64,000 nucleotides of DNA from Mucilaginibacter sp. UR6-11 (GTDB lineage: Bacteria; Bacteroidota; Bacteroidia; Sphingobacteriales; Sphingobacteriaceae): assembly GCF_020880695.1 (NCBI RefSeq), contig NZ_JAJIWO010000001.1, positions 992,001-1,056,000 on the forward strand, given 5' to 3'. Both the position numbers and the translations under genes were made by a program. A model generated the notes under the pieces. That model had not been told where the DNA came from. It was given only the letters and a program-made list of their open reading frames with translations, and made no database searches. This document shows positions 36,012 to 50,983 of the stretch, piece after piece. Each line of letters opens with the position of its first letter. The first letter of the stretch is position 1.

Positions 36012-38807
36012 ATGAAAATCACAATTTTATCAATAGCGTTATTAACGCTGTTGTCAATAACCGGGTACGCGCAAAGCAATTATGCGGTCACCGGCTCGGC
36101 TATTGACACATCCGAAAAAAAAGCTCTCCAAAACACCACCATCATGATTCTGAATGCTAAAGACTCTACCCTGTCAAAGTTTAGCCGCGCTGACGGAGAT
36201 GGAGCATTTCGCATTAATAATCTTAACGCTGGCAAATTTATACTGGTAATGTCTTATCCGGGTTACGCGGATTATACCGAAGATTTTATACTGGACGGCA
36301 AAACGGAACCTATCCATAACTTCGGCAAAATAAGCCTGGTACTGAAATCACGCTTATTGAAAGACGTGATCATTAAGGGCCAGGTAACGGCAATAAAAGT
36401 AAAAGGTGACACTACCGAGTTTAACGCCAAGGCCTACGTCATACAACCCAATGATAAGGTCGAGGACCTGATAAGGCAATTCCCGGGGATACAGGTTGAC
36501 AAAGACGGGAAAATAACGGCCCAGGGCCAAACCGTTAACAAGGTATTACTTGATGGTGAAGAATTTTTCGGCGATGATCCAACCCTGGTGACCAAAAATA
36601 TACGTGCCGATATGGTTGATAAAGTACAGCTATATGATAAGAAAAGCGACCAGGCGACTTTTACGGGGATTGATGACGGTGTTAAAACCAAAACTTTAAA
36701 TATTAAATTGAAAGATGGCAAAAAGAGCGGCTACTTTGGTAAAGCAGACTTTGGGATAGGTACAGACAAGTACTATACCGGGCAGCTGCTGTTTAATAAA
36801 TTTCAAAACAAAGAGAAATTCTCATTATACGGCACAGCGGCCAACACAGGTAAAACCGGGCTTAGCTGGGATGATGCACAAAAATATGCCGACGGCAGCG
36901 CACCTACTTTTGAGGACGGCGGGGTTTATTATGTTGGCGGCGGCGACGATCTGTATTACACCGGCGAAGGTATCCCCAAGGCAAAAACCAGCGGGGCGCA
37001 TTATGACAACAAATGGGATAGTGACAAATACGCCGTTAACAGTAACTATAAACTTGGCGCCCTGGATATTGACGGAACGAAAAGAACGGTGAGCCAAAAC
37101 AACTTACCGGGCCGTGTTATCAATAGTAATACCAGCCAGGAATCTCATAATTCTACATTCAGGCAAAAAATTGATGCTACCTTAACCATTAAACTTGATA
37201 CTACCTCCAACTTAAAAATTGCGGTTGACGGCACCTATAAACATCTTAAATCCAAAACAACAACTGTAGATACCAACCGGCGCGGTGATAACACTTTACT
37301 AAACATCAGCAATAACGATTTGAGTAATGATCGCGATCAGCATATATTTAACGCCAGTACTTTTTATACTAAAAAGTTAAAGAAAAAAGGGCGCACTTTA
37401 TCGGCATTGGTAAGTGCTTCATCAAATGATGATCAAAGCACGGGCTACCTAAAATCAAACCTGGCTTATTTTGACACCACCGGAACCTTAACCCGTAACG
37501 AGCCAACCGACCAGTATAAAACCAGCCACAATAAAAACACCACGCTAAATACAAACATTACTTATACCGAGCCGCTTACGAAGGAATTTTCAGTTATATT
37601 TAATTATGGCTTAAACGTAAACAACGGCAGCTCAGACCGCCGGGCATATAGTAAAGCCGCTGCCGGGAACAATTATGATGTGCTTGTAGACTCGTTGAGT
37701 AATTATTTTAAGCTGAACCAGCTATCTAACCAGGCTGGCGCCGTAATTAATTATACCAAAGGAAAAACGGTGATAAACTTTGGCACCAAAGCGTCTGATG
37801 TCTCTTTCAAACAAATCAATGAGTATACTGATGAAATCCTTAAAAGGCATTTCATAAACTGGAACCCCCAGGCTATGGTTTCGTATAAATTTTCTCAGCA
37901 GCAAACCGTAAGATTAAGCTATAACGGCAATACTAATCAACCGTCTATTAATCAGATACAGCCTGTTAAAAATAACAACAACCCGTTATATGTTATACTG
38001 GGCAATCCGGATCTTACCCCCTCGTTCAGAAACAGTTTTGACGGGTATTTTAACTCCTATAAAGTGTTAAGCGGACAAAGCATCTACCTGTCTGCCAACT
38101 ATTCATTTACCACAAACCCCATTGTAAACAATACGGCTACCGACGCGGGGGGAAAAACAACTGTACAATATTTTAACCTTCATGGTAAAAGCCCGCATAA
38201 CTTTAACGTTTATGCCGATCTGGGCCGCAAAATAAAAGGGCCGGATATTAACGTTGGTATAGGTGGCAGCATATATGGCAATACCTCATACAATATGGTA
38301 AAAAATGATATAAACGCCAGCAACCAGTTAAACACTACCAACGCCATTAACTATTCGGGCAGAATAAATGTTAATAAATATGTAGAGAATAAATATAGTT
38401 TTTACCTGTCGGGCGGCCCAACTTATAGTATCAATCAATCATCATTACAAGCTATTAGCAACAGTAACGGTGGGGGATTTAACGGCTATGGCGGATTTAA
38501 CGGCTATCTGCCACATCAATTTGAAATAGGTACTGATGTTAATTACACCTATACCGCAAAAACTGCGGCACTGCCCCAGGGTTTTAGGTCTACCATATGG
38601 AACGCCACTTTAGCCAAATATTTCTTTAAAGAGAAAAGCCTGAAACTATCTGCAACCGTTAATGACCTATTGAACCAGAACAATGGTTTTAACCGCTATG
38701 CCAGTGGCAGTGTTATTACCGAAGAAAGATACACTACCATAAAAAGATATTTCATGTTCTCCATAACTTATGATTTTACCAAAATGACAGCCGGATCAAC
38801 TAAATAA
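36012..38807 (+). CDS. Outer-membrane beta-barrel receptor with carboxypeptidase-like N-terminal domain
   Basis: This 931-residue TonB-dependent-receptor-like protein has a Sec signal (LLTLLSITGYAQ). A carboxypeptidase-D regulatory-like domain spans about 22-105 (GSAIDTSEKKALQNTTIMI). A plug-like domain follows at about 130-250 (DLIRQFPGIQVDKDGKI; VNKVLLDGEEFFGDDP), then a large beta-barrel of the outer-membrane beta-barrel (OMP_b-brl) type. It ends in an aromatic strand (YFMFSITYDFTKM). The ligand is unknown. The GLPGLI-family gene starts six bases later, a pairing seen often in Bacteroidota, suggesting a joint role in export or surface assembly. Confidence 0.88.
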   Translation: MKITILSIALLTLLSITGYAQSNYAVTGSAIDTSEKKALQNTTIMILNAKDSTLSKFSRADGDGAFRINNLNAGKFILVMSYPGYADYTEDFILDGKTEPIHNFGKISLVLKSRLLKDVIIKGQVTAIKVKGDTTEFNAKAYVIQPNDKVEDLIRQFPGIQVDKDGKITAQGQTVNKVLLDGEEFFGDDPTLVTKNIRADMVDKVQLYDKKSDQATFTGIDDGVKTKTLNIKLKDGKKSGYFGKADFGIGTDKYYTGQLLFNKFQNKEKFSLYGTAANTGKTGLSWDDAQKYADGSAPTFEDGGVYYVGGGDDLYYTGEGIPKAKTSGAHYDNKWDSDKYAVNSNYKLGALDIDGTKRTVSQNNLPGRVINSNTSQESHNSTFRQKIDATLTIKLDTTSNLKIAVDGTYKHLKSKTTTVDTNRRGDNTLLNISNNDLSNDRDQHIFNASTFYTKKLKKKGRTLSALVSASSNDDQSTGYLKSNLAYFDTTGTLTRNEPTDQYKTSHNKNTTLNTNITYTEPLTKEFSVIFNYGLNVNNGSSDRRAYSKAAAGNNYDVLVDSLSNYFKLNQLSNQAGAVINYTKGKTVINFGTKASDVSFKQINEYTDEILKRHFINWNPQAMVSYKFSQQQTVRLSYNGNTNQPSINQIQPVKNNNNPLYVILGNPDLTPSFRNSFDGYFNSYKVLSGQSIYLSANYSFTTNPIVNNTATDAGGKTTVQYFNLHGKSPHNFNVYADLGRKIKGPDINVGIGGSIYGNTSYNMVKNDINASNQLNTTNAINYSGRINVNKYVENKYSFYLSGGPTYSINQSSLQAISNSNGGGFNGYGGFNGYLPHQFEIGTDVNYTYTAKTAALPQGFRSTIWNATLAKYFFKEKSLKLSATVNDLLNQNNGFNRYASGSVITEERYTTIKRYFMFSITYDFTKMTAGSTK

Positions 38808-38813
38808 CAACCT

Positions 38814-39590
38814 ATGAAAAACCTTTTAATAACATTTGGCTGCTTTTTGATATTAGCCAACACCAACTGCCTGGCACAAACAGAACACTTTACCACATCG
38901 GGTATTATTGAGTTTACCAAAACGTCAAATGCCTATGCTATAATTCGTAAAGAGATAAATAAAGACAATGAATCGTATACTCAAAACGCTTTTGAGGAAT
39001 ACAAGAAAACACAACCGCAGTTTAAAGTATTAAAGAGCACTTTAAAATTTGGCAGTAATAAAACGTTATTTACACCTGTTGAGCCCGAGACACCGCCAAC
39101 CAATTATTTTTTTAACGTGGTGATAGCTGAACAGAACTCGACCGTTTATACTGACCTGAATACGGGTATAAGCACCAGCCAGAAAAAAGTATTTGAAGAA
39201 ACCTTTTTGTTGAAAGATACGGTCCGCAAAATTAAATGGAAAATTACTGACGAAACCCGCGAAATAGCAGGCTACCAATGCCGCAGGGCCAATGCGCTGA
39301 TAATGGATTCTGTTTATGTAGTTGCTTTTTATACGGACAGGATATTGGTAACCGGCGGGCCGGAATCATTTACCGGATTGCCGGGTATGATACTGGGTGT
39401 AGCACTGCCACACGAAAACGTAAGCTGGTTTGCCACCAAAATAACGGATACCAGTATGCCAGAAAGCACTATAATTCCGCCAAAAAAAGGCAAGCCGGTA
39501 AACAATACGCAATTTAAAGAAACGCTTAACAGCGCTTTAAAAGAATGGGGTACTTATGCGCACAGTTATTTAAAGGCGTTTTACTTGTAG
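38814..39590 (+). CDS. GLPGLI family secreted protein
   Basis: This 258-residue protein has a Sec signal (LANTNCLAQ; the Cys is inside the signal region and not a convincing lipobox). It carries the family signature in FTGLPGMILGVALPHENVSWFA, with GLPGMI in place of GLPGLI. The family is restricted to Bacteroidota and found next to outer-membrane receptors, as here, with a six-base gap. Function is unknown. Confidence 0.9.
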   Translation: MKNLLITFGCFLILANTNCLAQTEHFTTSGIIEFTKTSNAYAIIRKEINKDNESYTQNAFEEYKKTQPQFKVLKSTLKFGSNKTLFTPVEPETPPTNYFFNVVIAEQNSTVYTDLNTGISTSQKKVFEETFLLKDTVRKIKWKITDETREIAGYQCRRANALIMDSVYVVAFYTDRILVTGGPESFTGLPGMILGVALPHENVSWFATKITDTSMPESTIIPPKKGKPVNNTQFKETLNSALKEWGTYAHSYLKAFYL

Positions 39591-39680
39591 CCCTGATCAC
39601 TCGGCAAAAAACCTGCTAAAGATTCAAAACTTAGCTACGTGTCACATAAAAACAACAAAAGCATTGACTATTAAATCAGG

Positions 39681-41558
39681 CTAGTTATCGCCATTAAAAT
39701 CAATCAACCTTCGGCCTTTGATAAGCATTTTTATGCGCTGGCGTTTTAAGGAGATCTTTACGTGGGCAAACTCATTTTTTTCGATATCGCGGCTGTAAGC
39801 ACTGATGATATCTTTATAAGCCAACACTCCAATTACCTTACCAGCTGCTGATAACACAGGCAAAACCTCGGCCCCAGTTTTTGACATCTGCTCTACGGCG
39901 TGGCGCAGATTGTCTTTTGTATTTACACCTGTTATGACTTTTGGATCCACAATTTCTTTTAACAGCAAATTATCATTCAGCTTCTGATCATAAATATCAG
40001 TAAGTTTAACAGTGCCCGCATATTCGCCCTGGTTATTTACAGCAATAAAATTATTGTCGCTACCGGGGTTGGCAGCCAGCCAGCTCCTTATATCCTGAAT
40101 GTTGGTATTTTCATTGATTACCGTTTCGGTACTGTTTACCATCTGCCCCACTGTAATTTTTTGCAGGACGTCCGGTTCAAACGAATCGGGTGTTGAAATA
40201 CCGCGGCGCGCAATTTTTTCGGTCATAATGGTGTTTTCCATCAGGAAAAAAGAAACGATGTAAGCGCCGGTACAGGCACCCAGCAAGGGCAGCAAAGCGT
40301 GCGACTGCATGGTAGCCTCCAGTGCAAAAACGATGCTGGTCAGATAAGCTCTTGATGCTCCGGCAAACATAGCCGACATCCCGATCAGCGCAGCTAATGG
40401 TATATTAATACCTGAGTCCGGGAACATCTTTAAGATCAATATCCCTATCACCGATCCGGCAGCGCCGCCCATGGTCAGCAACGGAGCCAGTGTACCGCCC
40501 GAAGTACCGCTGCCTAAGGCTATAGCCCACGACAGGAACTTGAATATACACAAGCTCAATACCAGCGCCAGCGGCCACTTACCCGACAGGATACCGGTAA
40601 TGTTATCATAACCCACACCTAAGGTATGCGGCGAATAAAAGCCGATTAAACCTACAGCCAAACCACCCAGTGCCGGCCACCACATCCAGTGGATAGGCAG
40701 TTTCTCAAAGGCATCCTCAACCCAGTAAACAATTTTAGTGATACCCAGCGAAATGAAACCAATAAAAATCCCCATGAAGCTGTATATGCCCAGCGCCAGG
40801 TTTGATGGTATGGCAACCTCAGGCATTTGAAATACCGGGCCAGATTCAAATAATAAATGATGGCCCGCTGCACCGGTAATACAGGCTAAAGCAACCGGTA
40901 ATATTGATCGTGGTGAAAACTCGAATAACAATAATTCAATAGCCAAAAATACGGCTGCTATCGGCGTGCCAAATATAGCTGACATACCCGCCGTAGCCCC
41001 GGCAGCCAGGATAATTTTACGCTCATTGGCCGTAACTTTAAACAACTGGCCCAAGGTTGACCCAAGCGCGCCACCTGTTGCGATAATGGGCCCTTCGGCG
41101 CCAAAAGGACCACCGGTACCGATGGCTATTGCCGATGAGATAGGCTTGAGTAAAGTAATAGAGGGCTTAATGTTACTCTCATTAACCAATATCTGTTCCA
41201 TAGCCTCCGGGATGCCATGCCCGCGTATGGCTTTTGATCCGTAGAGGGCCATAAAGCCAACAACGACACCGCCGATAGCCGGTATTAAAATCACCCAGGC
41301 ACCTAAATGGTTATTGGCCGGGCTGTTAAAACCCAGGGTAAATGAGCCATAAAAAGCGATATTGGTCACCAGGTTAATTAAGGATACCAGCACTTTGGCT
41401 ATAAAGCTTATGGCTACCGCCACCGCAACCGTATATGCACAAATAGTTAACAGGCGCCCTTTAATGATAAAAGGCCTTTTTAAGTTACCTTCGGCGATTT
41501 CTAAATTGTTTAATAACGGCGATATGGGAATGCCATTGGGTATTTCAGCGTTTTTCAT
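39681..41558 (-). CDS. ClC-type chloride channel or transporter with CBS domains
   Basis: This 625-residue protein has ten or more helices and the ClC motifs GHGIPEAM, GPFGAEGPII (the gating Glu is present in GAEGP) and GTSGGTLAPLLT. Two CBS domains follow at about residues 480-600 (VGQMVNSTETVINENTNI; ITGVNTKDNLRHAV). It moves Cl-, as a channel or H+/Cl- exchanger, across the inner membrane, with regulation by CBS ligands such as ATP. The first 15 residues are polar. The ECF sigma gene lies 136 bases upstream on the same strand, so a shared transcript is possible. Confidence 0.92.
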   Translation of the reverse strand: MKNAEIPNGIPISPLLNNLEIAEGNLKRPFIIKGRLLTICAYTVAVAVAISFIAKVLVSLINLVTNIAFYGSFTLGFNSPANNHLGAWVILIPAIGGVVVGFMALYGSKAIRGHGIPEAMEQILVNESNIKPSITLLKPISSAIAIGTGGPFGAEGPIIATGGALGSTLGQLFKVTANERKIILAAGATAGMSAIFGTPIAAVFLAIELLLFEFSPRSILPVALACITGAAGHHLLFESGPVFQMPEVAIPSNLALGIYSFMGIFIGFISLGITKIVYWVEDAFEKLPIHWMWWPALGGLAVGLIGFYSPHTLGVGYDNITGILSGKWPLALVLSLCIFKFLSWAIALGSGTSGGTLAPLLTMGGAAGSVIGILILKMFPDSGINIPLAALIGMSAMFAGASRAYLTSIVFALEATMQSHALLPLLGACTGAYIVSFFLMENTIMTEKIARRGISTPDSFEPDVLQKITVGQMVNSTETVINENTNIQDIRSWLAANPGSDNNFIAVNNQGEYAGTVKLTDIYDQKLNDNLLLKEIVDPKVITGVNTKDNLRHAVEQMSKTGAEVLPVLSAAGKVIGVLAYKDIISAYSRDIEKNEFAHVKISLKRQRIKMLIKGRRLIDFNGDN

Positions 41559-41694
41559 AGTAAAAAGGAAACAGCGCAGGAAGATTGATGGAGCATCAAC
41601 GTGCTGCGGATATCAAATAATTTGCAATTATATTACTTATATAATATAATTAACAACATTATGGCGTATTTATTTCATTTTTATATGATTTAAA

Positions 41695-42348
41695 TCATAT
41701 TTTATATTGTGTTATTTGCTGCATAACCACATCTACCACCCTATCACAGCGCGATAAATGAAATTCGAAGATCTCCGGCGAGCGATAGTAGTCTTTTAAT
41801 TGATCGCGCAATAACATTTTAGCGCGCATTAACCTGATCTTCACATTTGATTCTTCAATGCCCAGCACTTCCATCGTCTCTTGTGTGCTCATATCTTCCA
41901 TTTCGCGCATTACAAACACCATCCGGTACTTATCGGGCAGTGCAGCTATTGCATTTTCAAGCAGTTGCTTTAGTTCTTTATTCATAACATCATTTAACGG
42001 TGTATGTGTAACTATGTCATTGGTTCTTTTGGCGTTAATTACTTTTTGCCTGTGCTGTAATTTCTTTTTGCGCAGTATACATTCATTTATAAGTATGCGG
42101 GTTATCCAGGTATTAAATTTTGCGCGCTTATTAAAACTGCCCAGGCTTCGATAGGCATATATATAAGTGTTCTGCATAATATCCTCCGCTTCCATATCAT
42201 CCCCGATAAATGACATACTAATGCGGAACATACGTGCATTTAACCTGCGCATTATCGTTTCATACAGATAACTCTGGCCATTTATTATGCGTTCAACAAT
42301 ATCTTCATCGCTTAAAGAATCGGTATTGATCATTGACTTTATATTCAT
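41695..42348 (-). CDS. ECF-type RNA polymerase sigma factor
   Basis: This 217-residue sigma factor has region 2 at residues 14-85 (DEDIVERIINGQSYLYE; EDIMQNTYIYAYRSLGSF) and region 4 at about 125-175 (LPDKYRMVFVMREMEDMSTQE, then NVKIRLMRAKMLLRDQL). A C-terminal extension of about 40 residues after region 4 (YYRSPEIFEFHLSRCDRVVD) is longer than usual and may sense a signal or bind an anti-sigma factor, but no anti-sigma gene is next to it. An inverted repeat upstream at 42387 may regulate it and the divergent DoxX-like gene. Confidence 0.88.
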   Translation of the reverse strand: MNIKSMINTDSLSDEDIVERIINGQSYLYETIMRRLNARMFRISMSFIGDDMEAEDIMQNTYIYAYRSLGSFNKRAKFNTWITRILINECILRKKKLQHRQKVINAKRTNDIVTHTPLNDVMNKELKQLLENAIAALPDKYRMVFVMREMEDMSTQETMEVLGIEESNVKIRLMRAKMLLRDQLKDYYRSPEIFEFHLSRCDRVVDVVMQQITQYKI

Positions 42349-42386
42349 TTGCTATGCTTTACCACCCATAGAGTCAGGCCGGGACC

Positions 42387-42419
42387 AAAGGGTTACATTT
42401 TTATTTTTTGTAACCCTTT
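42387..42419. promoter_or_regulatory. Inverted repeat between divergent sigma and DoxX-like genes
   Basis: AAAGGGTTAC (42387-42396) and GTAACCCTTT (42410-42419) form a perfect 10-bp inverted repeat around a 13-base T-rich spacer, in the 116-base gap between divergently transcribed genes. It could be an operator or, because T-rich DNA follows, a leader terminator for the plus-strand gene. Confidence 0.45.
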
Positions 42420-42464
42420 TTTAACTGGCTGTCTCTAATCAATAAATTTAATCTTAAATAAATT

Positions 42465-42848
42465 ATGGACGAGAAAAAAATTAACCAGGTACAAACGTTG
42501 TTGAAATTTACGTATGGCCTTATTCCTATTGTAGCTGGCGCTGATAAGTTTACAAACCTGCTTACAAATTGGGCGCAATATCTTAATCCTTCGGTTGCCG
42601 GCGCGCTTCCGTTTACACCCCACGTATTTATGGCCATAGTAGGGGTTATTGAAATTATAGCCGGCATATTGGTATTTATAAATGCAGCAAAGGCCGGTTA
42701 CCTGGTGTCAGCGTGGTTAGTGTTAATTGCACTAAGCCTGTTAGCAAGTGGGAAGTTTATTGATATTGCCGTGCGTGATATAGCAATGGCAATTGGAGCT
42801 TATTCATTGGCGCAATTATCGGCAGCATCAAAAAAAGTTTCTTTATAG
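42465..42848 (+). CDS. DoxX-like small membrane protein
   Basis: This 127-residue protein has four predicted helices: LLKFTYGLIPIVAGADKFT, FMAIVGVIEIIAGILVFI, LVSAWLVLIALSLLAS and a C-terminal helix. The GADKF motif in helix 1 is the DoxX-like hallmark. It is divergent from the ECF sigma gene and may be a target of that factor, but this is inference. No redox partner gene adjoins. Confidence 0.78.
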   Translation: MDEKKINQVQTLLKFTYGLIPIVAGADKFTNLLTNWAQYLNPSVAGALPFTPHVFMAIVGVIEIIAGILVFINAAKAGYLVSAWLVLIALSLLASGKFIDIAVRDIAMAIGAYSLAQLSAASKKVSL

Positions 42849-42919
42849 CTGTATTAGGGTTAGCTAAGAACGTTTTTATTTATTAAAATCGTACTTTTAG
42901 CTAACCTTTCACCTGATAC

Positions 42920-44155
42920 ATGAAGACCGTCCGCCTGCTGTTAGTTTTTATCGCTTTTTTAAATGTTTGCGCAACCGCACAGGGGCACTATAACGTTATG
43001 GGTACCATTGCTGATAGTAAAGGCAAACCTGTTAACGGCGCTACCGTATTTATGAGCGGGTCTGAAAAAATAACCGCTACCAATACTGCCGGCCAGTTTA
43101 TATTTTACAATATTGATCCCGGTGCATTTCAGTTGTCGGTAAAAATGCTGGGTTACGCCTATTGTTCAAAAGACATAGTAATCCAGGACAAGTCGGTGGA
43201 AGTTAATATCTCATTAAAAGAAAAACCTATTGCACTTACCGAGGTAAAAATCGGGCCCGATGCATGGGAGAGAAATTACCGGATATTTAAGGACGAGTTT
43301 TTAGATACTACCCCTAACGGTAAAGAATGCACAATATTGAATCCACAGGTTTTAAACTTTAGCACCATGAAACTGGGGTGGGGCAGGATCCTTTTAAAGG
43401 CCGATGCGGATGAGTTTTTGATAATTGAAAACAAAAGGCTGGGATATGGGGTGCACTACCTGCTTAAAACTTTTGAAAATAATGGCCTTACGGGTATCAC
43501 CAGCTATGATGGCGACGCCGTTTTTGAGGAAATGGACGGTACCCCCGAAATGAAAAAAAATTGGGCTAAAAACAGGCTCGAGGCTTATAAAGGTTCATTT
43601 ATGCATTTTTTGCGGTCGGTTTATGCAAACACTACGCTGGATGAAGGATTTATCACGCACCAAATGTATCCTGCGCGGGGCAGTATTAACGGTATATATA
43701 TGGATACCCGGCCGGTAAATTTCGATACGCTGGTTACCCCTATTGATACGTCTTTCATATCATTAAAATTCACCTCGCTATATATTATTTATGATCCGCG
43801 TAAAGCCGGGAAGTTAAAAAGCCAGGGCATAACTTCTGTAAGAAATAAGGTACAACAAACTGATGTAAATGCAGAAATGATTAGTAACTCAAAGATTTTA
43901 CCAGACAGCGCTAATTTTAAGACCCTGGTTACCAGCGGGCCAAATGGCGTTAGCCCGGCTGTACCGGCCACCGTAAAGGTGAGCCCTGATGTAAATAATG
44001 CTTCGCAGATCATATTGAATTTAAGAGAAGCCATTATTGACGCGAAGGGCAGCTATACCGACTACCGCACATTTTTTCTCCGGAAAAACTGGGGTAAAAA
44101 GAGGGTGGGCGACCAATTGCCTTTTGAATATCAGCCTCCTGCCGTAAATAATTGA
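42920..44155 (+). CDS. Carboxypeptidase-like regulatory domain protein
   Basis: This 411-residue secreted protein has a Sec signal ending CATAQ and a carboxypeptidase-D regulatory-like domain at about 22-100 (GTIADSKGKPVNGATVFMSG; MLGYAYCSKDIVIQD). A long C-terminal part follows, with WERNYRIFKDEFLDTTPNG and MHFLRSVYANTTLDEGFI. Proteins with this architecture are abundant in Bacteroidota and usually lack an assigned role; some lie near TonB receptors. It is probably surface-associated or periplasmic. It is 71 bases after the DoxX-like gene. Confidence 0.82.
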   Translation: MKTVRLLLVFIAFLNVCATAQGHYNVMGTIADSKGKPVNGATVFMSGSEKITATNTAGQFIFYNIDPGAFQLSVKMLGYAYCSKDIVIQDKSVEVNISLKEKPIALTEVKIGPDAWERNYRIFKDEFLDTTPNGKECTILNPQVLNFSTMKLGWGRILLKADADEFLIIENKRLGYGVHYLLKTFENNGLTGITSYDGDAVFEEMDGTPEMKKNWAKNRLEAYKGSFMHFLRSVYANTTLDEGFITHQMYPARGSINGIYMDTRPVNFDTLVTPIDTSFISLKFTSLYIIYDPRKAGKLKSQGITSVRNKVQQTDVNAEMISNSKILPDSANFKTLVTSGPNGVSPAVPATVKVSPDVNNASQIILNLREAIIDAKGSYTDYRTFFLRKNWGKKRVGDQLPFEYQPPAVNN

Positions 44156-44230
44156 TTTATTCAGTCTTTGCCTGGCTGAATTTAAATTCATTCGCTCTCT
44201 CCAAATTTGGTCAAATTTTACCCTGCCATG

Positions 44231-44263
44231 TTGCACTCCTTTAAAACATTAAAGATATTTTTG
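44231..44263 (+). promoter_or_regulatory. Candidate promoter of the DACNV-like gene
   Basis: TTG at 44231-44233 and TATTTTTG at 44256-44263 are separated by 22 bases, close to the Bacteroidota form TTTG-N19-21-TAnnTTTG. The start codon is at 44282, so the leader would be very short. The -33 box is only a TTG. Confidence 0.4.
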
Positions 44264-44281
44264 AGGTATAAATAACCATTA

Positions 44282-45421
44282 ATGCTGTCAGAACCAACCT
44301 ATATAGCTGCGCGCATGGTAGCTGCTACCATTGAGGCACATTTTGCCACCCATTTGGCTGCAGCAAGCGCACAGGGTGCAATAAACCTTGCCGACGAACC
44401 ACAGGCGCCAATTATTGAGGCCATTATTGACGTAGCATTTTGGGCCAGCTTGCGTAAAGAAGAAGGGCATCCGCCAAAAATATCTATCGCGCTGTTACAG
44501 CCCGGGCAGGCCAGCCAACCGCTGATATTTGGTAACCGCATACGGCTTACTCCGCATAATCTTACTAAACTGGCTCCGGCAGTTGAAAGCCCCGGAATAC
44601 ACCTTGGCGTTTGGTTTGAAAACGATGAGCTGTATGTGTGGGGTACTACCCTTGCCATACCGGGTATTTGTTTTGTGCTGGAAGTTATTGAGCCGGGCCT
44701 GCTGGTAATAAAACATAGCCGGACTGATGGTTTTGGCAAATTTGTGAACATAGCGGTACTTAAAGGGGACGAAATCAAAATTATTGACGAGCAAAATACC
44801 GGATTACAAAATTGTCCCGCCCTGATAGATTCCCTGCTGGGGATGCCGAATCCGTTTGCTGACGGATCTGTAAACATTATGGTTGAACTGGCTGCGTCCA
44901 TGCGCATACATGGCCGCGGCGGGCTGGTATTGATAATACCCGAGCATTCAGGCCAATGGCAGCAATCTATCGTCCACCCCATAACTTACCCGGTGGTACC
45001 TACGTTTAAGGGTATTACCAGGTTGATGAAACAGGATAAATGCGATAGGTCAAAAACCGACTGGCAGGAGGCACTGCTGCGGGCGATAGATATCATTGGT
45101 GGCTTCACCGCGGTTGATGGCGCCACCATTATCAATCGTAATTATGAATTGCTGGCATTCGGTGCAAAAATTGCACGTTCAGGCATGAGCTCGCCCGTTG
45201 ATCAGATCATTACTACCGAACCCGTGATGGATGGCGGACCTGTGCTGATGCATCCCAGCCAAAACGGCGGCACCCGACACCTGGCAGCTGCCCAGTTTGT
45301 GTTTGACCAGCGGGACGCCATAGCGCTGGTGGCTTCACAGGATGGCAGGTTTACTATTTTCGCCTGGTCACCAATATTAGAGATGGTGCACGCGCACCGG
45401 ATTGATATCTTGTTATTGTAA
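44282..45421 (+). CDS. DACNV-type sensor with diadenylate-cyclase-like domain
   Basis: This 379-residue protein has an N-terminal domain (about 1-180) of unknown fold and a C-terminal DisA_N-like domain. The latter has VELAASMRIHGRGGLVLIIP, GGFTAVDGATIINRNYELLAFGAKI (DGA motif; VDGATII) and GGTRHLAAAQFVFD (GTRH motif) before ALVASQDGRFTIFAW. These are the ATP-binding signatures of diadenylate cyclases, which make c-di-AMP; the second Arg of RHR is Leu here. Burroughs and colleagues named DACNV domains as probable sensors fused to DAC domains; I match it by layout. No GdpP or CdaR partner is near. It is cytoplasmic, with no signal peptide. Confidence 0.65.
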   Translation: MLSEPTYIAARMVAATIEAHFATHLAAASAQGAINLADEPQAPIIEAIIDVAFWASLRKEEGHPPKISIALLQPGQASQPLIFGNRIRLTPHNLTKLAPAVESPGIHLGVWFENDELYVWGTTLAIPGICFVLEVIEPGLLVIKHSRTDGFGKFVNIAVLKGDEIKIIDEQNTGLQNCPALIDSLLGMPNPFADGSVNIMVELAASMRIHGRGGLVLIIPEHSGQWQQSIVHPITYPVVPTFKGITRLMKQDKCDRSKTDWQEALLRAIDIIGGFTAVDGATIINRNYELLAFGAKIARSGMSSPVDQIITTEPVMDGGPVLMHPSQNGGTRHLAAAQFVFDQRDAIALVASQDGRFTIFAWSPILEMVHAHRIDILLL

Positions 45422-45475
45422 ACCGCCCCGGATCGTCCGTGAAATTTTAAAGTTGCCCCTTTAAGAGCAAAAGAC

Positions 45476-45564
45476 CGGTAGAAAAAAATTAAAAACCGTC
45501 AGCCTTAGCGCGTACAGGTAAGAATACCTGAGGCAACTGACAAATCTCTTAATTTTTTCTACCG
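45476..45564. other. Structured inverted-repeat element between convergent genes
   Basis: An outer stem of 16 bp (CGGTAGAAAAAAATTAA with TTAATTTTTTCTACCG, one bulge) encloses GTCAG/CTGAC and GCCT/AGGC helices and an inner hairpin CAGGTA-AGAA-TACCTG. All four helices are nested in one 89-base unit. It could be a bidirectional terminator for the convergent DAC-like and SRPBCC genes, a structured RNA, or a small mobile element with terminal inverted repeats. I know no family that fits. Confidence 0.6.
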
Positions 45565-45610
45565 AACTTATATCCCTATGGACTTGTGAAGGCGCGTCCA
45601 AACGGTAGTC

Positions 45611-46039
45611 TTAATCTTTTTCTACATAATTTTTCAAACCAGTACCGGTAACATAGGTCCAGCCTTTGGCAAAACTTGTTCTGGCAAATGATGGATTATC
45701 CTGCGGGAAGGTTTCTAATCCGGTATGGGTGAGTTTAATGCGGGTTTTATCGCCTTCCTCAAATAGCTCCCAGGTTACCAGCGAGTCGCCCGGAAATTCT
45801 TCATAGCGCCACGAATGCGATAGTTTTTTAAGCGGCACCACTTCCGTAATAACACACCTGTGCCAAAAAGTAACGCCTTTATCTGTCCCGCTAAAGCGGA
45901 AGGTAAAACCAACCTCGGGCTTAAAATCATCAACATCAAAATACCACTCTTTCATTTTGGCCTTGTCGGTAATGGCGCTCCATACGCGCTCAACCGGCGC
46001 GTTGTAGGTTTGTTCAATAACAAATGGTTCTGTCGTCAT
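45611..46039 (-). CDS. SRPBCC (AHSA1-like) protein, paralogue 2
   Basis: This 142-residue START-like/AHSA1 domain protein has VIEQTYNAPVERVWSAITD, MKEWYFDVDDFKPEVGFTFRF and the C-terminal helix WTYVTGTGLKNYVEK. The family has a hydrophobic ligand cavity; function is unknown. It is 17 bases downstream of its paralogue and third in an ArsR-led operon, so it should be derepressed with that regulator. The pair shares most of its motifs (VIE.TYN, WYF/WFF, DDFKPEVGF), pointing to tandem duplication. Confidence 0.88.
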   Translation of the reverse strand: MTTEPFVIEQTYNAPVERVWSAITDKAKMKEWYFDVDDFKPEVGFTFRFSGTDKGVTFWHRCVITEVVPLKKLSHSWRYEEFPGDSLVTWELFEEGDKTRIKLTHTGLETFPQDNPSFARTSFAKGWTYVTGTGLKNYVEKD

Positions 46040-46056
46040 ATCGTAATAGCTGTTTA

Positions 46057-46479
46057 TTATTTGTTTAAGAAATCATCAAGTTTACCGGCAAGATAGGTCC
46101 AGCCACCCAGGAATTTTTCGCGGGCATACATAGGGCTGCCTTTGGCAATTTCGGCCAGTTGGCTATGGGTTAATACTAACCTGGTTTTATCTCCCTCATC
46201 AAATAATTCAAACGTAACCAACGACTCCTGCGGGTAATCTTTATAGATCATTGAATAAGCCAGTTTTTTACCGGGGATGACCTCTTTAATCACGCTTTCA
46301 TGTACAACCCTGGTGCCATTATCATTGCCTGAAAAGCTAAAGGCAAACCCGACCTCGGGTTTAAAGTCTTCCAGTTGAAAGAACCACTGGTTTATTTTAT
46401 TGATGTCTGTCAGCGCCTGCCATACCTTATCCGCAGGTACGTTATAAGTGCGCTCTATTACAATAGGCTCTGTGTTCAT
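46057..46479 (-). CDS. SRPBCC (AHSA1-like) protein, paralogue 1
   Basis: The product has 140 residues and the same fold as the next gene: IVIERTYNVPADKVWQALTD, INQWFFQLEDFKPEVGFAFSF and a C-terminal helix FLGGWTYLAGKLDDFL. It is the second gene of the operon, 25 bases after arsR, and is the likely partner of the paralogue in binding a small hydrophobic molecule. No catalytic residues are known for the family. Spacing and strand point to one transcript. Confidence 0.88.
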   Translation of the reverse strand: MNTEPIVIERTYNVPADKVWQALTDINKINQWFFQLEDFKPEVGFAFSFSGNDNGTRVVHESVIKEVIPGKKLAYSMIYKDYPQESLVTFELFDEGDKTRLVLTHSQLAEIAKGSPMYAREKFLGGWTYLAGKLDDFLNK

Positions 46480-46504
46480 AACTTTCTGTTTGATTTTTTA
46501 TTGA

Positions 46505-46828
46505 TTATTTCTTTTTAGTTTGTTGTTCTTTATCCAGAAAAGCGCCCAAAGCATCCAGTTTTTCGGTCCAGAATTTTTGATATCTGGCGGTCCAGTCGGC
46601 CACTTGTTTTAGCTTTCCAAAATCGGCATGGCAATAGCGTTCGCGTCCCTGCTGGGTTATGGTTACCAGGCCGCACTCTGTCAATATCTTTATGTGTTTG
46701 GATATGGCCGGTCGGCTGATGGCAAACTGATCAGCAACATTGTTCAAATTCAATGATTGTTGCGCCAGCATCCCGATGATCTCTCTACGGGTTGGATCGG
46801 CAATAGCCTGGAAAACGTCTCTTCTCAT
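46505..46828 (-). CDS. ArsR/SmtB-family transcriptional repressor
   Basis: This 107-residue winged-helix repressor has AIADPTRREIIGML, then the recognition region NVADQFAISRPAISKHIKIL and a wing LVTITQQGRERYCH. The metal-binding Cys motif (CVC) of ArsR is not present; the single Cys are in GLV/RYC contexts. It therefore probably senses a small molecule rather than arsenic. It is first in the operon with two SRPBCC genes. Two identical-arm palindromes over its promoter at 46848-46889 are the likely autoregulatory operators. Confidence 0.92.
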   Translation of the reverse strand: MRRDVFQAIADPTRREIIGMLAQQSLNLNNVADQFAISRPAISKHIKILTECGLVTITQQGRERYCHADFGKLKQVADWTARYQKFWTEKLDALGAFLDKEQQTKKK

Positions 46829-46847
46829 ATATAAACCGGCATAATAA

Positions 46848-46894
46848 GTAACCGTTCGGTTACAAATATATAAGTAACCATTTGGTTACGCAAA
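46848..46894 (-). promoter_or_regulatory. ArsR-operon promoter with two palindromic operators
   Basis: On the minus strand, TTTG at 46894-46891, a 20-base spacer and TATATTTG at 46870-46863 form a good Bacteroidota promoter. GTAACCATTTGGTTAC (46874-46889) fills the spacer. GTAACCGTTCGGTTAC (46848-46863) covers the start-site region. Both have GTAACC-N4-GGTTAC arms, 26 bases apart. A repressor on these sites should block polymerase, and the adjacent ArsR protein is the obvious candidate. Confidence 0.82.
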
Positions 46895-47102
46895 TTTATT
46901 TTAAAATTTATTGGCGAATGCTTCTGCTCCCCGCAGGGACGGGCTTCAATTTAAAGTGACATCTTGAACAAGCAAATGCGATAAATACGATTGAAAGTAC
47001 AGACTTTGGATATTTCGATTTGGAACGCCCGTTGTGTTGGTCCGGATTTAGTCTGCCACTCTTCCGCAAGTGAGAGCGGAGGATCACATAGATTAACTGG
47101 TA

Positions 47103-48995
47103 TTACTTCTTCTCCTTAGCAGCGTCGGGGTTTTCTTTCAGATAAATGCGGTATAGCTCAAAGAAATCCGGTGCGCTCAGCAGCTCTATTTTAGGATCCA
47201 GCTTTTTAAGTTCGGCAACTACCTGCACGTACCACGACGGGCTTTTCAAAATATTGCGGAACCAATGGAAAGGAACCCCGCGTTTATGAACACGATCATA
47301 AATGATCCGGGCGGCTTCAACCGGGTCCTGGTTAACGTCTTCATCTGATCGCAGTACCGGCATATTACCATGCAATGAAGTCAGGGGTACCTTTTGCGGC
47401 ACAATACCGTTAGGGCTAAATGCAGCGTAGGCATCAAGCCCCTTTTGGTTCAGCGGCGGCGCCTGGCCGTCAATAATAAACCCGGTAATAGTCAGGCCCC
47501 ATTGCTGGTAGTAGGGTTTGTTATGCGCTACCCAGGCATCCACACCATCGGGCAGGCCGGATAACGGCCGGGGGGCCTGCAGCATTCCAGGCATTAAATA
47601 ACCGGCGCCATTATCCGCAGCAGCAAAATAATCATTGGGCGTAGCGGTTTCGCGCCGGTAATCCAGGGCCATCGGCACCCGCTCGGCCAGTACCGGGCTA
47701 ATGCTCCACATCATGGGTACTTTGCCCCGGTTCGGATCATCCCAAAGCGTTGGGGTGGTTTGCGATACCCACGATGACGCGTCATAATCACCCACATAAA
47801 AAATAATGAAGTTGCGGCCTTTATAATCAATTTTACCATCAGCTGTCAAATAACCCTTGCCGGTTAACTGCGCTTTGGTTACCCAATTCTGCTTATACTC
47901 TTTTTTAAGCGGGAAATGCTGCCAGAACGACGCATTAGCCAACGCGCCATATCCAATAGCATCGGCATCCTTAAATGCATTGTAAGCGCTGATAATGCGC
48001 GAGTATTCCCACTCGGTTGCCACATCTTCATGGCTACCTTTGGCATGTCTGGTATATTTAAATGCCCACGGCGGGAAACCGCCCAGGTAAGCATAACCAC
48101 CTTTGTTTTGCTTATATGCCGCCAGCAATAATTCTTTTAAGGTATTAACATCTGTACCCGGCGTTTGCGTCAGGTCGTCGGTGGCAGCTTCATCTGCCCA
48201 GGGGCTCAGATCAAAAAAGAAACCGCGACGGCTGATGAAAAAATCATGGTTTGACAGCGTATGATGGTTGCGATTAGCCAGGAAAGGATTTTTCAACCAC
48301 TGCTGATCGATATAATAAGCGCCATAGCTGGTATTGACCTTACCGGTTTTCATGTACTTCTCTAAAAACCATAGATAGGCGTCGTTTTTTGCCGAACCGC
48401 TGGATACTCGGGTTGTACCGGGGATAGTACCCTTGCCAGTAAAAAGAGATGAACCGCCGGCATTTACCAAACTAACACGCACCGGGATTTTTGGGCCGCC
48501 GGTGATTATTTGCGAATAAAGGCTGTTGGGGCCGGTATCATATCTCACCACAATTAAATCCTCTGCGCCAGCCACTGACGATGCTACGTTACTGGTAGCC
48601 GGCACGTTTGGATCATAAACAACGGCGCCCCTGATCTTATTTTTATAGGCGGCTATTACATCAGCTACATTTTTATAGACGAGGGTATCGCGCCTGCTCA
48701 GCCATTTGCCTGGCGCACGGTATTTGTTCCACCAGTAGCGGTCTATATCGGCATTGGCGTTCTTTATCAGGAAAATATATAATTGCGGTCTATCCCGGTT
48801 AACAATGCCCTGCAGCGAGGCAATGGTGTGGGTATAATCCCATGCATTGTTTATGGCTTGCTGGTCGCCTTGCTGAACCTGCAGTGTAAAGCCCAGGTCC
48901 AACAAACCTATAGCTGGTAATTTTTTTGATTGAGCAAAAGAATTGGTAATGCAGGCAGCAATAAGCAGGCAAACTGCAAGGGCATATTTTTTCAT
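47103..48995 (-). CDS. Secreted GxGYxYP-family protein
   Basis: This 630-residue protein has a Sec signal (LLIAACITNSFAQ). The family motif appears as NGAGYLMPG near residue 465 (GxGYxxPG, Met in place of Tyr). Other segments include VVYDPNVPATSNVASSVAG, YLGGFPPWAFKYTRHAKGSHED and GRNFIIFYVGDYDASSWV. The GxGYxYP domain is linked by annotation to carbohydrate-active proteins, but no activity is known to me. It is divergent from the FucP-like transporter across 209 bases, which supports a role in using a deoxysugar or related carbohydrate. Its last residues (EKK) overlap no other gene. Confidence 0.8.
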   Translation of the reverse strand: MKKYALAVCLLIAACITNSFAQSKKLPAIGLLDLGFTLQVQQGDQQAINNAWDYTHTIASLQGIVNRDRPQLYIFLIKNANADIDRYWWNKYRAPGKWLSRRDTLVYKNVADVIAAYKNKIRGAVVYDPNVPATSNVASSVAGAEDLIVVRYDTGPNSLYSQIITGGPKIPVRVSLVNAGGSSLFTGKGTIPGTTRVSSGSAKNDAYLWFLEKYMKTGKVNTSYGAYYIDQQWLKNPFLANRNHHTLSNHDFFISRRGFFFDLSPWADEAATDDLTQTPGTDVNTLKELLLAAYKQNKGGYAYLGGFPPWAFKYTRHAKGSHEDVATEWEYSRIISAYNAFKDADAIGYGALANASFWQHFPLKKEYKQNWVTKAQLTGKGYLTADGKIDYKGRNFIIFYVGDYDASSWVSQTTPTLWDDPNRGKVPMMWSISPVLAERVPMALDYRRETATPNDYFAAADNGAGYLMPGMLQAPRPLSGLPDGVDAWVAHNKPYYQQWGLTITGFIIDGQAPPLNQKGLDAYAAFSPNGIVPQKVPLTSLHGNMPVLRSDEDVNQDPVEAARIIYDRVHKRGVPFHWFRNILKSPSWYVQVVAELKKLDPKIELLSAPDFFELYRIYLKENPDAAKEKK

Positions 48996-49162
48996 AGGTA
49001 ATATAATGGTGTGCCAAATGTAGTAATTGCGGGTTAAAATATTTAATAGGGCATTTATTATGAATTGTTTAATAAAATTTGTTTTTTTGATCGTGATAAG
49101 ACCTATTGCATAACCGGCGATACCTAACCAATTTAACTGTTACCAATTATTTAATGTATATG

Positions 49163-49180
49163 ATTGCAATGTCCTGCAAT
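49163..49180. promoter_or_regulatory. Inverted repeat upstream of fucP-like gene
   Basis: ATTGCA and TGCAAT flank a six-base spacer at 49163-49180, within the 209-base gap between the divergent GxGYxYP and FucP genes. It has the size of a helix-turn-helix operator that could control both genes. No regulator gene lies beside it. Confidence 0.35.
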
Positions 49181-49204
49181 TATTTTACCCTAACCAACTA
49201 ACCA

Positions 49205-50440
49205 ATGAGCCAAAAAGCAGCTTTTACCGAGAAGAAATTTATTGTCACCTTTATTTTTGTCACCTCGCTGTTCCTGATGTGGGGTGTGCTACACGCTATG
49301 AGCGATGTACTGAACAAGCACTTTCAAAACGTTTTAAATCTATCCATCTCACAATCAGGCCTGATCCAGCTTTCTGTTTTCGGTGCCTATTTTATAATGA
49401 GTATACCGGCTGGGTTATTCATGAAGAAATACGGTTATAAAGCCGGGGTAATATTAGGATTATTGCTATTTGCCGGCGGTTTATTTTTGTTTGTGCCGGC
49501 AGCTAACGCAGCCTCTTTCATTTTTTTCAGGGTAGCTTTATTTATAGTGGGTTGCGGGATGGCAACGTTAGAAACCGTTGCGCATCCGTTTGCTGCTGCC
49601 CTTGGCGACCAGCGTAAAAGCGACCTGCGTGTAAACTTTGCGCAGACGTTTAATGCTGTTGGTACCATCATTGGCCCAACCATTGGCGCATTCTTTCTTT
49701 TAAGTGGCGATACGGTAAAGTCGACGGACCTTACTTCCGTAAAAACCTTATATGTAGCTATAGGTATTGTGGTATTGTTAATAGCCGTTGTTTTTGCGTT
49801 TTTAAAGATCCCCGCGCTGGTTGACCCACATGCAGCCGCGCCGTCTGACGATCCGGAAGCAATAAATGTAGACGTAGCCCCGACAAAAAAACTATACCAG
49901 CACAGCCACTTTGTTTGGGCCTGTGCGGCACAGTTCTTTAACGTAGCCGCTCAGGGTGGTACCTGGGCCTACTTTATCAATTATGGTGTGAGTGTTATGC
50001 ATTTCAGTGATGAAAAAGCGGGTTATTTTATGAGTTTGTTTATGGGGATGATGTTGCTTGGCCGCATAGTGGGCACGTCATTAATGACTGTTATAGCACC
50101 TAACAAACTGTTGGCCATTTTTGCTGCAGGTAATATCCTGATGTGTTTAATTGTAGCGCAACATCTGGGCTGGCCATCATATATCGCTTTATTAATGATT
50201 AATTTCTTCTTTAGTATCATGTTCCCAACCATCTTTAGTTTGGGATTAAAGAACCTGGGAAGCCATACTCAACAAGCCTCCTCATTTATTGCTATGGGCG
50301 TAGTTGGCGGCGCTGTATTCCCTTTTATTATGGGTCAAATTGCTAATCATAACGTAGCGCAGGCTTATTACTTGCCAATTATCTGCTACGCGGTTATATT
50401 TATGTTTGGCTATAAATTTTACAAAGTAAAAGTAGCATAA
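49205..50440 (+). CDS. fucP: FucP-like sugar:proton symporter (MFS)
   Basis: The product is a 411-residue MFS permease with 12 helices. Markers of the L-fucose permease group are LFLMWGVLHAMSDVLNKHF near residues 20-38 (an Asp in the first helix loop), QLSVFGAYFIMSIPAG and GCGMATLETVAHPFAAALG (Asn/Glu-type proton and sugar sites). It imports fucose or a similar deoxysugar with H+. A strong terminator follows at 50462. No fucose isomerase or kinase gene is present in the window, so the substrate stays inferred from similarity. Confidence 0.86.
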   Translation: MSQKAAFTEKKFIVTFIFVTSLFLMWGVLHAMSDVLNKHFQNVLNLSISQSGLIQLSVFGAYFIMSIPAGLFMKKYGYKAGVILGLLLFAGGLFLFVPAANAASFIFFRVALFIVGCGMATLETVAHPFAAALGDQRKSDLRVNFAQTFNAVGTIIGPTIGAFFLLSGDTVKSTDLTSVKTLYVAIGIVVLLIAVVFAFLKIPALVDPHAAAPSDDPEAINVDVAPTKKLYQHSHFVWACAAQFFNVAAQGGTWAYFINYGVSVMHFSDEKAGYFMSLFMGMMLLGRIVGTSLMTVIAPNKLLAIFAAGNILMCLIVAQHLGWPSYIALLMINFFFSIMFPTIFSLGLKNLGSHTQQASSFIAMGVVGGAVFPFIMGQIANHNVAQAYYLPIICYAVIFMFGYKFYKVKVA

Positions 50441-50461
50441 GTTTTCTATACAGTTTTTTCT

Positions 50462-50491
50462 AGCCCGGGCAAATTGCCCGGGCTTTTTTTG
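50462..50491 (+). terminator. Rho-independent terminator after fucP
   Basis: AGCCCGGGC pairs with GCCCGGGCT around AAATT, followed by seven T residues. This is a textbook terminator 21 bases after the fucP stop. Confidence 0.9.
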
Positions 50492-50530
50492 TACCAGGAA
50501 AAAATATTTTCAAAAAAATCAACCTAACTA

Positions 50531-50560
50531 TTGTTTCGTACGAAAACTTTCCTACCTTTG
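50531..50560 (+). promoter_or_regulatory. BlaI-operon promoter with palindromic operator
   Basis: TTG at 50531-50533, a 19-base gap and TACCTTTG at 50553-50560 match the Bacteroidota promoter. TTTCGTACGAAA (50534-50545), a perfect 12-bp palindrome, fills the first part of the spacer. The blaI start codon is at 50565, so the transcript should be leaderless or nearly so. A BlaI dimer on this palindrome should repress its own operon. Confidence 0.78.
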
Positions 50561-50564
50561 ATTT

Positions 50565-50972
50565 ATGGAACCCGGAAAAGAAGACAAAGCCCCTAAAACA
50601 GAACCGACAAAAGCCGAGCTGGAGATATTACAGGTATTGTGGCAGCATGGTCCAAATACTGTGCGCTTCGTTAATGACAGGCTAAATGAGCAGCGCGAGA
50701 TCAACTACACCTCAACCCTAAAGCTGATGCAGATCATGGCGGATAAAGGCATTTTGAAAAGAGACGAAAGCCAGATGAAGCACATCTATCATGTGGTTGA
50801 GGCTGAAGAAAAAACCAAGGACCATTTACTGGATCGCTTTGTTGATACCGTTTATCGCGGATCGGCAAGTAAGCTGGTAATGCAGCTATTGGGCAACAAA
50901 AAAGCATCAAAAGAAGAACTGGCCAGCATAAGGAAAATACTGGACAACATGGAAAATAACGGTAACTTTTAA
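50565..50972 (+). CDS. BlaI/MecI/CopY-family repressor
   Basis: This 135-residue repressor has the winged-helix pattern ELEILQVLWQHGPNTVRFVND, then EINYTSTLKLMQIMADKGIL (recognition) and a C-terminal dimerisation helix. The family represses beta-lactamase, mec or copper genes and is inactivated by cleavage by an M56 peptidase, which is encoded 11 bases downstream. The palindrome TTTCGTACGAAA in the promoter is the expected operator. The first 15 residues are Lys/Glu/Thr-rich. Confidence 0.93.
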   Translation: MEPGKEDKAPKTEPTKAELEILQVLWQHGPNTVRFVNDRLNEQREINYTSTLKLMQIMADKGILKRDESQMKHIYHVVEAEEKTKDHLLDRFVDTVYRGSASKLVMQLLGNKKASKEELASIRKILDNMENNGNF

Positions 50973-50983
50973 CTTAAAAGATC

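Follow-up and report, generated by a model that had tools for sequence, protein, structure and literature searches.

A DACNV protein of Mucilaginibacter with a predicted diadenylate cyclase fold and a family-wide change in the RHR motif

The window, by which we mean the whole 64,000-nucleotide stretch of Mucilaginibacter sp. UR6-11 DNA that was analysed, encodes a protein in which a DACNV domain precedes a C-terminal half predicted to adopt the diadenylate cyclase (DAC) fold. Its RHR motif reads RHL, and the second Arg is missing from all the homologues that were examined. The explanation that we favour, with a probability of about 0.45, is that the protein is an active or conditionally active second c-di-AMP cyclase, as judged from its sequence and from structural models. 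The available text of PMC9259658 reports c-di-AMP as essential for Porphyromonas gingivalis and describes second-messenger signalling across the Bacteroidetes as largely unknown.

Results

The gene is intact and under purifying selection

The gene (Table 1) begins with ATG, and most homologues align from residues 1–6 of its protein. An ORF of 227 codons on the opposite strand (44299–44982) overlaps the gene and was taken as its shadow. A profile of the whole protein matched 16 of the 395 genomes of a class sample that includes the window's genome, 15 of them across residues 1–379 and one across 4–379. The nearest relatives among the named records (L043–L047) are Mucilaginibacter proteins sharing 77–89% identity with it. 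For the six closest relatives used, dN/dS was 0.03–0.06 in five of six pairs; these ratios are rough because all dS values are at least 1.6 and saturated, and for L047 and the DAC part of L046 saturation leaves the printed ratio of 0 meaningless. A pseudogene or a local mutation was rejected, since none of the 16 profile matches has an internal stop and dN/dS is low. A scan of the 379-aa protein with NCBIfam and PADLOC (2023 database, which predates DS-2) gave nothing at E ≤ 10.

Table 1. Positions of the gene, its domains and its motifs in the window
Feature	Position	Strand	Remarks
DACNV-DAC protein gene	44282..45421	+	ATG start, 379 aa
Pfam DACNV domain, PF21751	44384..44650	+	residues 35-123; E 9.1e-35, 119.2 bits (cut-off 27)
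N-terminal part, predicted DAC-like fold without the GxRHR segment	44282..44785	+	residues 1-168
C-terminal DAC-fold domain (predicted model compared with solved DACs)	44816..45412	+	residues 179-377
DGA motif	45116..45124	+	residues 279-281; in 113/113 aligned sequences
TRHL in place of TRHR	45272..45283	+	residues 331-334; L334 codon 45281-45283
SQDG in place of SEE(T)G	45335..45346	+	residues 352-355; S352 and D354 at ATP and metal positions

A DAC fold is predicted for the C-terminal half

A full-length AlphaFold2 model was built from an alignment of 43 sequences, that of the window and 42 homologues (pLDDT 84.8, pTM 0.80). Its C-terminal part superposed on M. tuberculosis DisA (9y4s_D) with a Z of 15.7 and an rmsd of 1.9 over 134 residues, on T. 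maritima DisA (3c1y) with a Z of 14.6, and on solved CdaAs and their relatives with a Z of about 10–12.5, which assigns the model to the DAC fold.

The Pfam DAC profile (PF02457) matched residues 327–355 with an E value of 0.0023 and 17.9 bits, below its curated cut-off of 27; scanned singly, 37 of the 43 sequences matched it at E ≤ 1, the best at 0.0004. A profile of the C-terminal part matched CdaA weakly (E 0.013, against 0.034 for the best of 20 column-shuffled controls), and the alignment placed DGA on DGA, GTRH on GLRH and SQD on SEE. No match at E ≤ 1 was found by phmmer between the 379-aa protein and solved (PDB) chains. A family profile run against the PDB returned only a dehydrogenase at E 0.79, taken as chance, and a viral fold library gave nothing at E ≤ 0.001. 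Since the DAC and CdaA profile scores are weak, the assignment is based mainly on predicted fold and motif register, and the C-terminal half is predicted to be a DAC whose sequence has drifted far. The original prediction, made from the letters of the gene, had called this half a DAC-like domain with DGA and GTRH segments, and had staked itself on a significant DAC match and on the register of these segments: the register and the predicted fold bear it out, whereas the profile score stays under the cut-off.

The second Arg of RHR is lost throughout the family

The change was followed in an alignment of 113 non-identical sequences, comprising that of the window, those of 37 relatives and a further 75 from named records, Mucilaginibacter, Pedobacter, Hymenobacter, Larkinella, Dyadobacter and Chitinophaga among them. 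The search had found 104 relatives, of which 80 were retained as related loci; the window's own sequence met a second time (L003), a truncated fragment (L112), two proteins of another DACNV type (L014 and L015) and exact duplicates were left out of the alignment.

Within the GGTRHL segment (residues 329–334), residues 331–334 read TRHL in 86 sequences, TRHF in 15, SRHL in 8, TRHM in 3 and TRHI in 1. The position of the second Arg is thus occupied by Leu (94), Phe (15), Met (3) or Ile (1) and in none of the 113 by Arg, so that the GxRHRxA signature is absent from all of them. The Leu that the original prediction had noticed in one protein is L334. Both R332 and H333 are conserved in 113 of 113 sequences, and position 331 is Thr in 105 and Ser in 8. 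Where (V/I)SEE would stand, 112 sequences have SQDG and one has SVDG, with the acidic residue kept as Asp354. The position of L215, which by our alignment is equivalent to the adenine-contacting Leu of the GALI motif, is variable (Leu 39, Ser 19, Ala 19, Thr 18, Ile 17, Cys 1).

Six positions that correspond to contacts named for CdaA, D279, G330, R332, H333, S352 and D354, are invariant in the 113 sequences, whose pairwise identity goes down to 43%. With 28 of the 184 positions of the DAC part invariant, finding six of six contacts among them has a P of about 8e-6 if columns are independent, a figure that ignores shared ancestry and the general conservation bias of Gly and Asp.

The changed Arg lies outside the published list of ATP contacts

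For Listeria CdaA, the available text of PMC7288161 lists an ATP site that consists of the side chains of Leu31, Asp71, Thr102, Arg103, His104, Ser122 and Glu124, the last also on the metal, and of the main chains of Leu88, Gly101 and Glu123; the second Arg of RHR (Arg105 in Listeria numbering) is absent from these ten residues. All but Leu88 could be mapped onto the window protein, as L215, D279, T331, R332, H333, S352 and D354 for the side chains and G330 and Q353 for the main chains. These equivalences, those of the metal and adenine positions included, are our own and follow the sequence register. In Leptospira CdaA, substitution of D172 (of DGA) or of R203 abolishes activity, according to the part of PMC12974146 available. 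By our count the first Arg of GXRHRXA is R203: it precedes S222 by 19 residues, the spacing between Arg103 and Ser122 in Listeria. The equivalents of D172 and R203 are both retained in the DACNV-DAC protein.

Changing RHR to AAA abolishes the activity of M. tuberculosis DacA (PMC3328451), B. thuringiensis CdaS (PMC4568413) and M. bovis CdaM (PMC13022847), again by the available parts of these sources. Such mutants alter three residues at once, so none isolates the second Arg, and no single mutant of it appears in the available text of these three papers or of PMC12974146, nor among the titles returned by a directed literature search. The inactivity of the triple mutants therefore does not simply transfer to a natural RHL variant. 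The family offers a natural dissection of RHR, with the first Arg and the His kept and the second Arg gone, which lets the catalytic part of the motif be tested.

The change is a family-wide trait, it falls outside the contact list as far as that source was available, and most listed contacts are kept; a lost ATP contact is therefore not the obvious reading. The original prediction had offered two alternatives, an active enzyme with altered ATP handling or a nucleotide-binding sensor that lost catalysis, and both stay plausible: the alteration of RHR is real, but the nucleotide site looks kept, with a family-specific change beside it.

A second cyclase or a receptor derived from one

The second cyclase that we favour would be a stand-alone and probably soluble member of the DAC family; the protein occurs in several Bacteroidota genera, nearly always together with a canonical DAC. 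Its C-terminal DAC keeps the positions for ribose (D279), phosphate (G330, T331, R332, H333, S352) and metal (D354 for Glu), so ATP is most likely still bound. Two such domains would pair in the head-to-head manner that DACs require, making c-di-AMP slowly or conditionally. Synthesis would be controlled by the N-terminal DACNV part, a putative sensor, and the output would supplement that of the housekeeping CdaA.

The predicted DAC fold (Z 15.7), the six invariant contact positions and a dN/dS far under 1 argue for this explanation. Against it stand the loss of the second Arg, which is part of the GxRHRxA signature in known DACs, the replacement of SEE by SQD, the variable adenine-contact Leu, a DAC score below the Pfam cut-off, the weak profile match to CdaA, the canonical CdaA that the genome already has, and the common motif drift in the DACNV group.

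Several of these points also fit a pseudo-cyclase, a tentative alternative that has to be taken seriously. Its DAC domain would bind c-di-AMP (or ATP) without synthesis and relay its state via DACNV, an enzyme turned receptor; a parallel is seen in c-di-GMP signalling, for which degenerate GGDEF and EAL domains are named as effectors in the available text of PMC7288161. The second Arg and the first Glu of SEE are lost family-wide, the adenine-contact Leu is not kept and the DAC score is sub-threshold, all as such a receptor would have it, and a DAC above the cut-off accompanies DACNV in 130 of the 132 DACNV genomes of the family sample, among the matches listed. The invariance of Asp279 and of the first Arg (Arg332) in 113 of 113 sequences speaks against this alternative, though both could serve binding too. 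Also against it, Pfam and NCBIfam recognised no output domain, and there is no conserved partner, the top neighbour family being found at 17 of 78 loci. A literature search that included the Bacteroidetes listed, by title, no paper on an inactive DAC.

The N-terminal part is DACNV and may be a degenerate DAC

The protein had been named DACNV-type from the start, and its N-terminal half had nonetheless been said to match no domain that could be named with certainty. The name was right and the second statement was not: the half carries PF21751, with a score well over the curated cut-off (Table 1). This family, entitled 'Probable sensor domain DACNV', is already known in Pfam, and the window protein looks like a typical member, with no difference found; the domain was matched in 43 of 43 sequences scanned singly. 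A literature search by the name DACNV gave only an unrelated antibody, and Galperin 2023, on DAC architectures, lay outside its coverage and may already describe the motif change.

Some relatives also carry a second DACNV type of about 440–470 aa (L014 1429–2751, L015 535–1869, L123–L139), which is absent from the window's genome. Of 19 such proteins among the matches listed, 18 keep RHR, and DGA has become DGV in 17 and DGL in 2, which indicates that motif drift is common in the DACNV group. L014, the sole member scanned, matched DACNV and gave no DAC match at E ≤ 0.01.

Modelled alone (181 residues), the N-terminal part reached a pLDDT of 86.4 and a pTM of 0.85. Re-alignment of this model with 997 candidate PDB chains gave DACs as all of the best 39 listed (104–114 aligned residues, rmsd 3.2–4.3), at a Z of 5.5–7.6, a range in which, by the alignment tool's own warning for values below 8, a match may reflect merely a common arrangement. 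The top unrelated entry had a Z of 3.2, leaving a clean gap below the DACs. Foldseek also ranked a DAC first, without significance (E 0.31). In our reading of the models the strand order is like that of DACs and the helix bearing GxRHR has no counterpart. Neither hhalign (E 0.49; 46 of 50 shuffles equally good) nor profile alignment with secondary structure (z 0.79; 25 of 100 shuffles equally good, in an implausible register) detected sequence homology of the N-terminal part to the C-terminal one. With no support from either comparison, the idea of a tandem DAC stands on the predicted fold, and we treat a degenerate DAC nature of DACNV as a lead. A fuller version, which we consider unlikely, has this N-terminal DAC, devoid of its GxRHR helix, pair with the site-bearing C-terminal DAC within or between chains, the pseudo-dimer then acting as a c-di-AMP receptor or as a regulated cyclase with one site in several Bacteroidota genera. 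If the 'sensor' were indeed a degenerate DAC, it would show a c-di-AMP synthase turning into its own regulator or receptor.

The protein is probably an addition to a complete c-di-AMP machinery

The DACNV profile matched 132 of 201 genomes in a family sample and 11 of 395 in a phylum sample, the window's genome being included in both. Among the matches listed for the family sample, all 35 genomes sampled from the window's genus have DACNV. A DAC above the cut-off was found in 193 of the 201 genomes, and the two DACNV genomes that lack one (G422 and G541) are assemblies 92% and 68% complete.

Besides a canonical CdaA, the window's genome encodes a YbbR-domain protein, which we take to be of the CdaR family, a 7TM-HD protein, presumably of PgpH type, and two DHH proteins, one of them 336 aa long. 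With these, c-di-AMP turnover is probably complete elsewhere in the genome, and the DACNV-DAC protein is probably an addition to this machinery. The earlier remark that no canonical partner is nearby is correct for the locus but does not extend to the genome.

A regulatory role on CdaA is an improbable alternative, in which the altered DAC domain would pair head to head with that of CdaA and block or tune it. Catalysis requires two face-to-face DAC domains, by the available texts of PMC8573169 and PMC7288161, and a canonical DAC co-occurs nearly always with DACNV. This co-occurrence is uninformative here because DACs are near-universal in the family sample; another genus of the family (g2) has, among the matches listed, DAC in 34 of 34 genomes and DACNV in none of 34.

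The CdaA of the same genome (L002) shares the predicted DAC fold and the Asp, Arg, His and Ser contact positions with the window protein. In contrast to the latter, it has an N-terminal transmembrane CdaA_N domain, a DAC match of 128 bits and intact GLRHRA and SEETG motifs. The residue before RHR in GLRHRA of this CdaA (L002 1120–1914) is Leu, and the solved CdaAs compared have Thr there. The DisA proteins of M. tuberculosis and T. maritima have the DAC fold in common with the window protein (Z 15.7 and 14.6), but their DAC domain is N-terminal, whereas here it is C-terminal, with RHL for RHR and SQD for SEE. No literature was found for 'c-di-AMP' with 'Mucilaginibacter'.

The neighbourhood is not conserved

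The gene is chromosomal. A mobile or phage gene was considered and rejected, as tblastn at E ≤ 1e-3 matched none of 72,556 plasmid records and none of 50,697 from phages. A pattern search of IMG/VR matched 21 stretches, none encoding a relative; an RHR form could escape it because one of the two patterns contained RH[LF].

Neighbour families were counted within eight genes (blastp 1e-10, 60% coverage) at 78 of the 80 loci, the anchor of L053 and L100 having been lost in gene calling. No conserved neighbour or partner gene was found: the best recurring families were present at 17 and 16 of 78 loci, counts that are lower bounds because some loci have short flanks. In the window, the genes nearby encode by Pfam a carboxypeptidase-regulatory-domain protein, two AHSA1-type proteins and an ArsR-type regulator, and none of seven neighbours scanned with Pfam belongs to a defence family. 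The CBASS-linked DAC of DS-2, found by DefensePredictor (available text of PMC13092281), likewise belongs to the DAC family without being the housekeeping enzyme, a likeness at the level of description; DS-2 is linked to CBASS, whereas the window gene has no defence gene among the seven.

A different dinucleotide or oligonucleotide made on the DAC scaffold would agree with the unconserved adenine-contact position and with SQDG and GGTRHL, unlike the CdaA motifs, and is the least probable of the explanations considered. Against it, the seven neighbours scanned with Pfam include neither a defence gene nor an obvious effector, and the protein has no PADLOC family and no plasmid or phage copy, although none of this bears directly on the product.

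About 2.7 kb upstream, on the opposite strand (39681–41558), lies a gene whose product is of the chloride-channel type and carries a CBS domain (Pfam). CBS domains are among the known c-di-AMP binders, but the genes around the cyclase-like gene are not conserved. Further on, 50565–52933 holds what we take, by the look of the sequence, to be a pair like a BlaI-type repressor and a BlaR1-type membrane peptidase.

Between two convergent genes, at 45471–45569, lies an A+T-rich hairpin with 17-nt arms that are 88% complementary. Rfam gave no match over 38000–52000, and a simple terminator scan placed no terminator at the hairpin. The segment 45440–45600 folds better than 200 of 200 shuffles (z −3.3). 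The hairpin occurs as a single copy in the genome and may be a two-way terminator.
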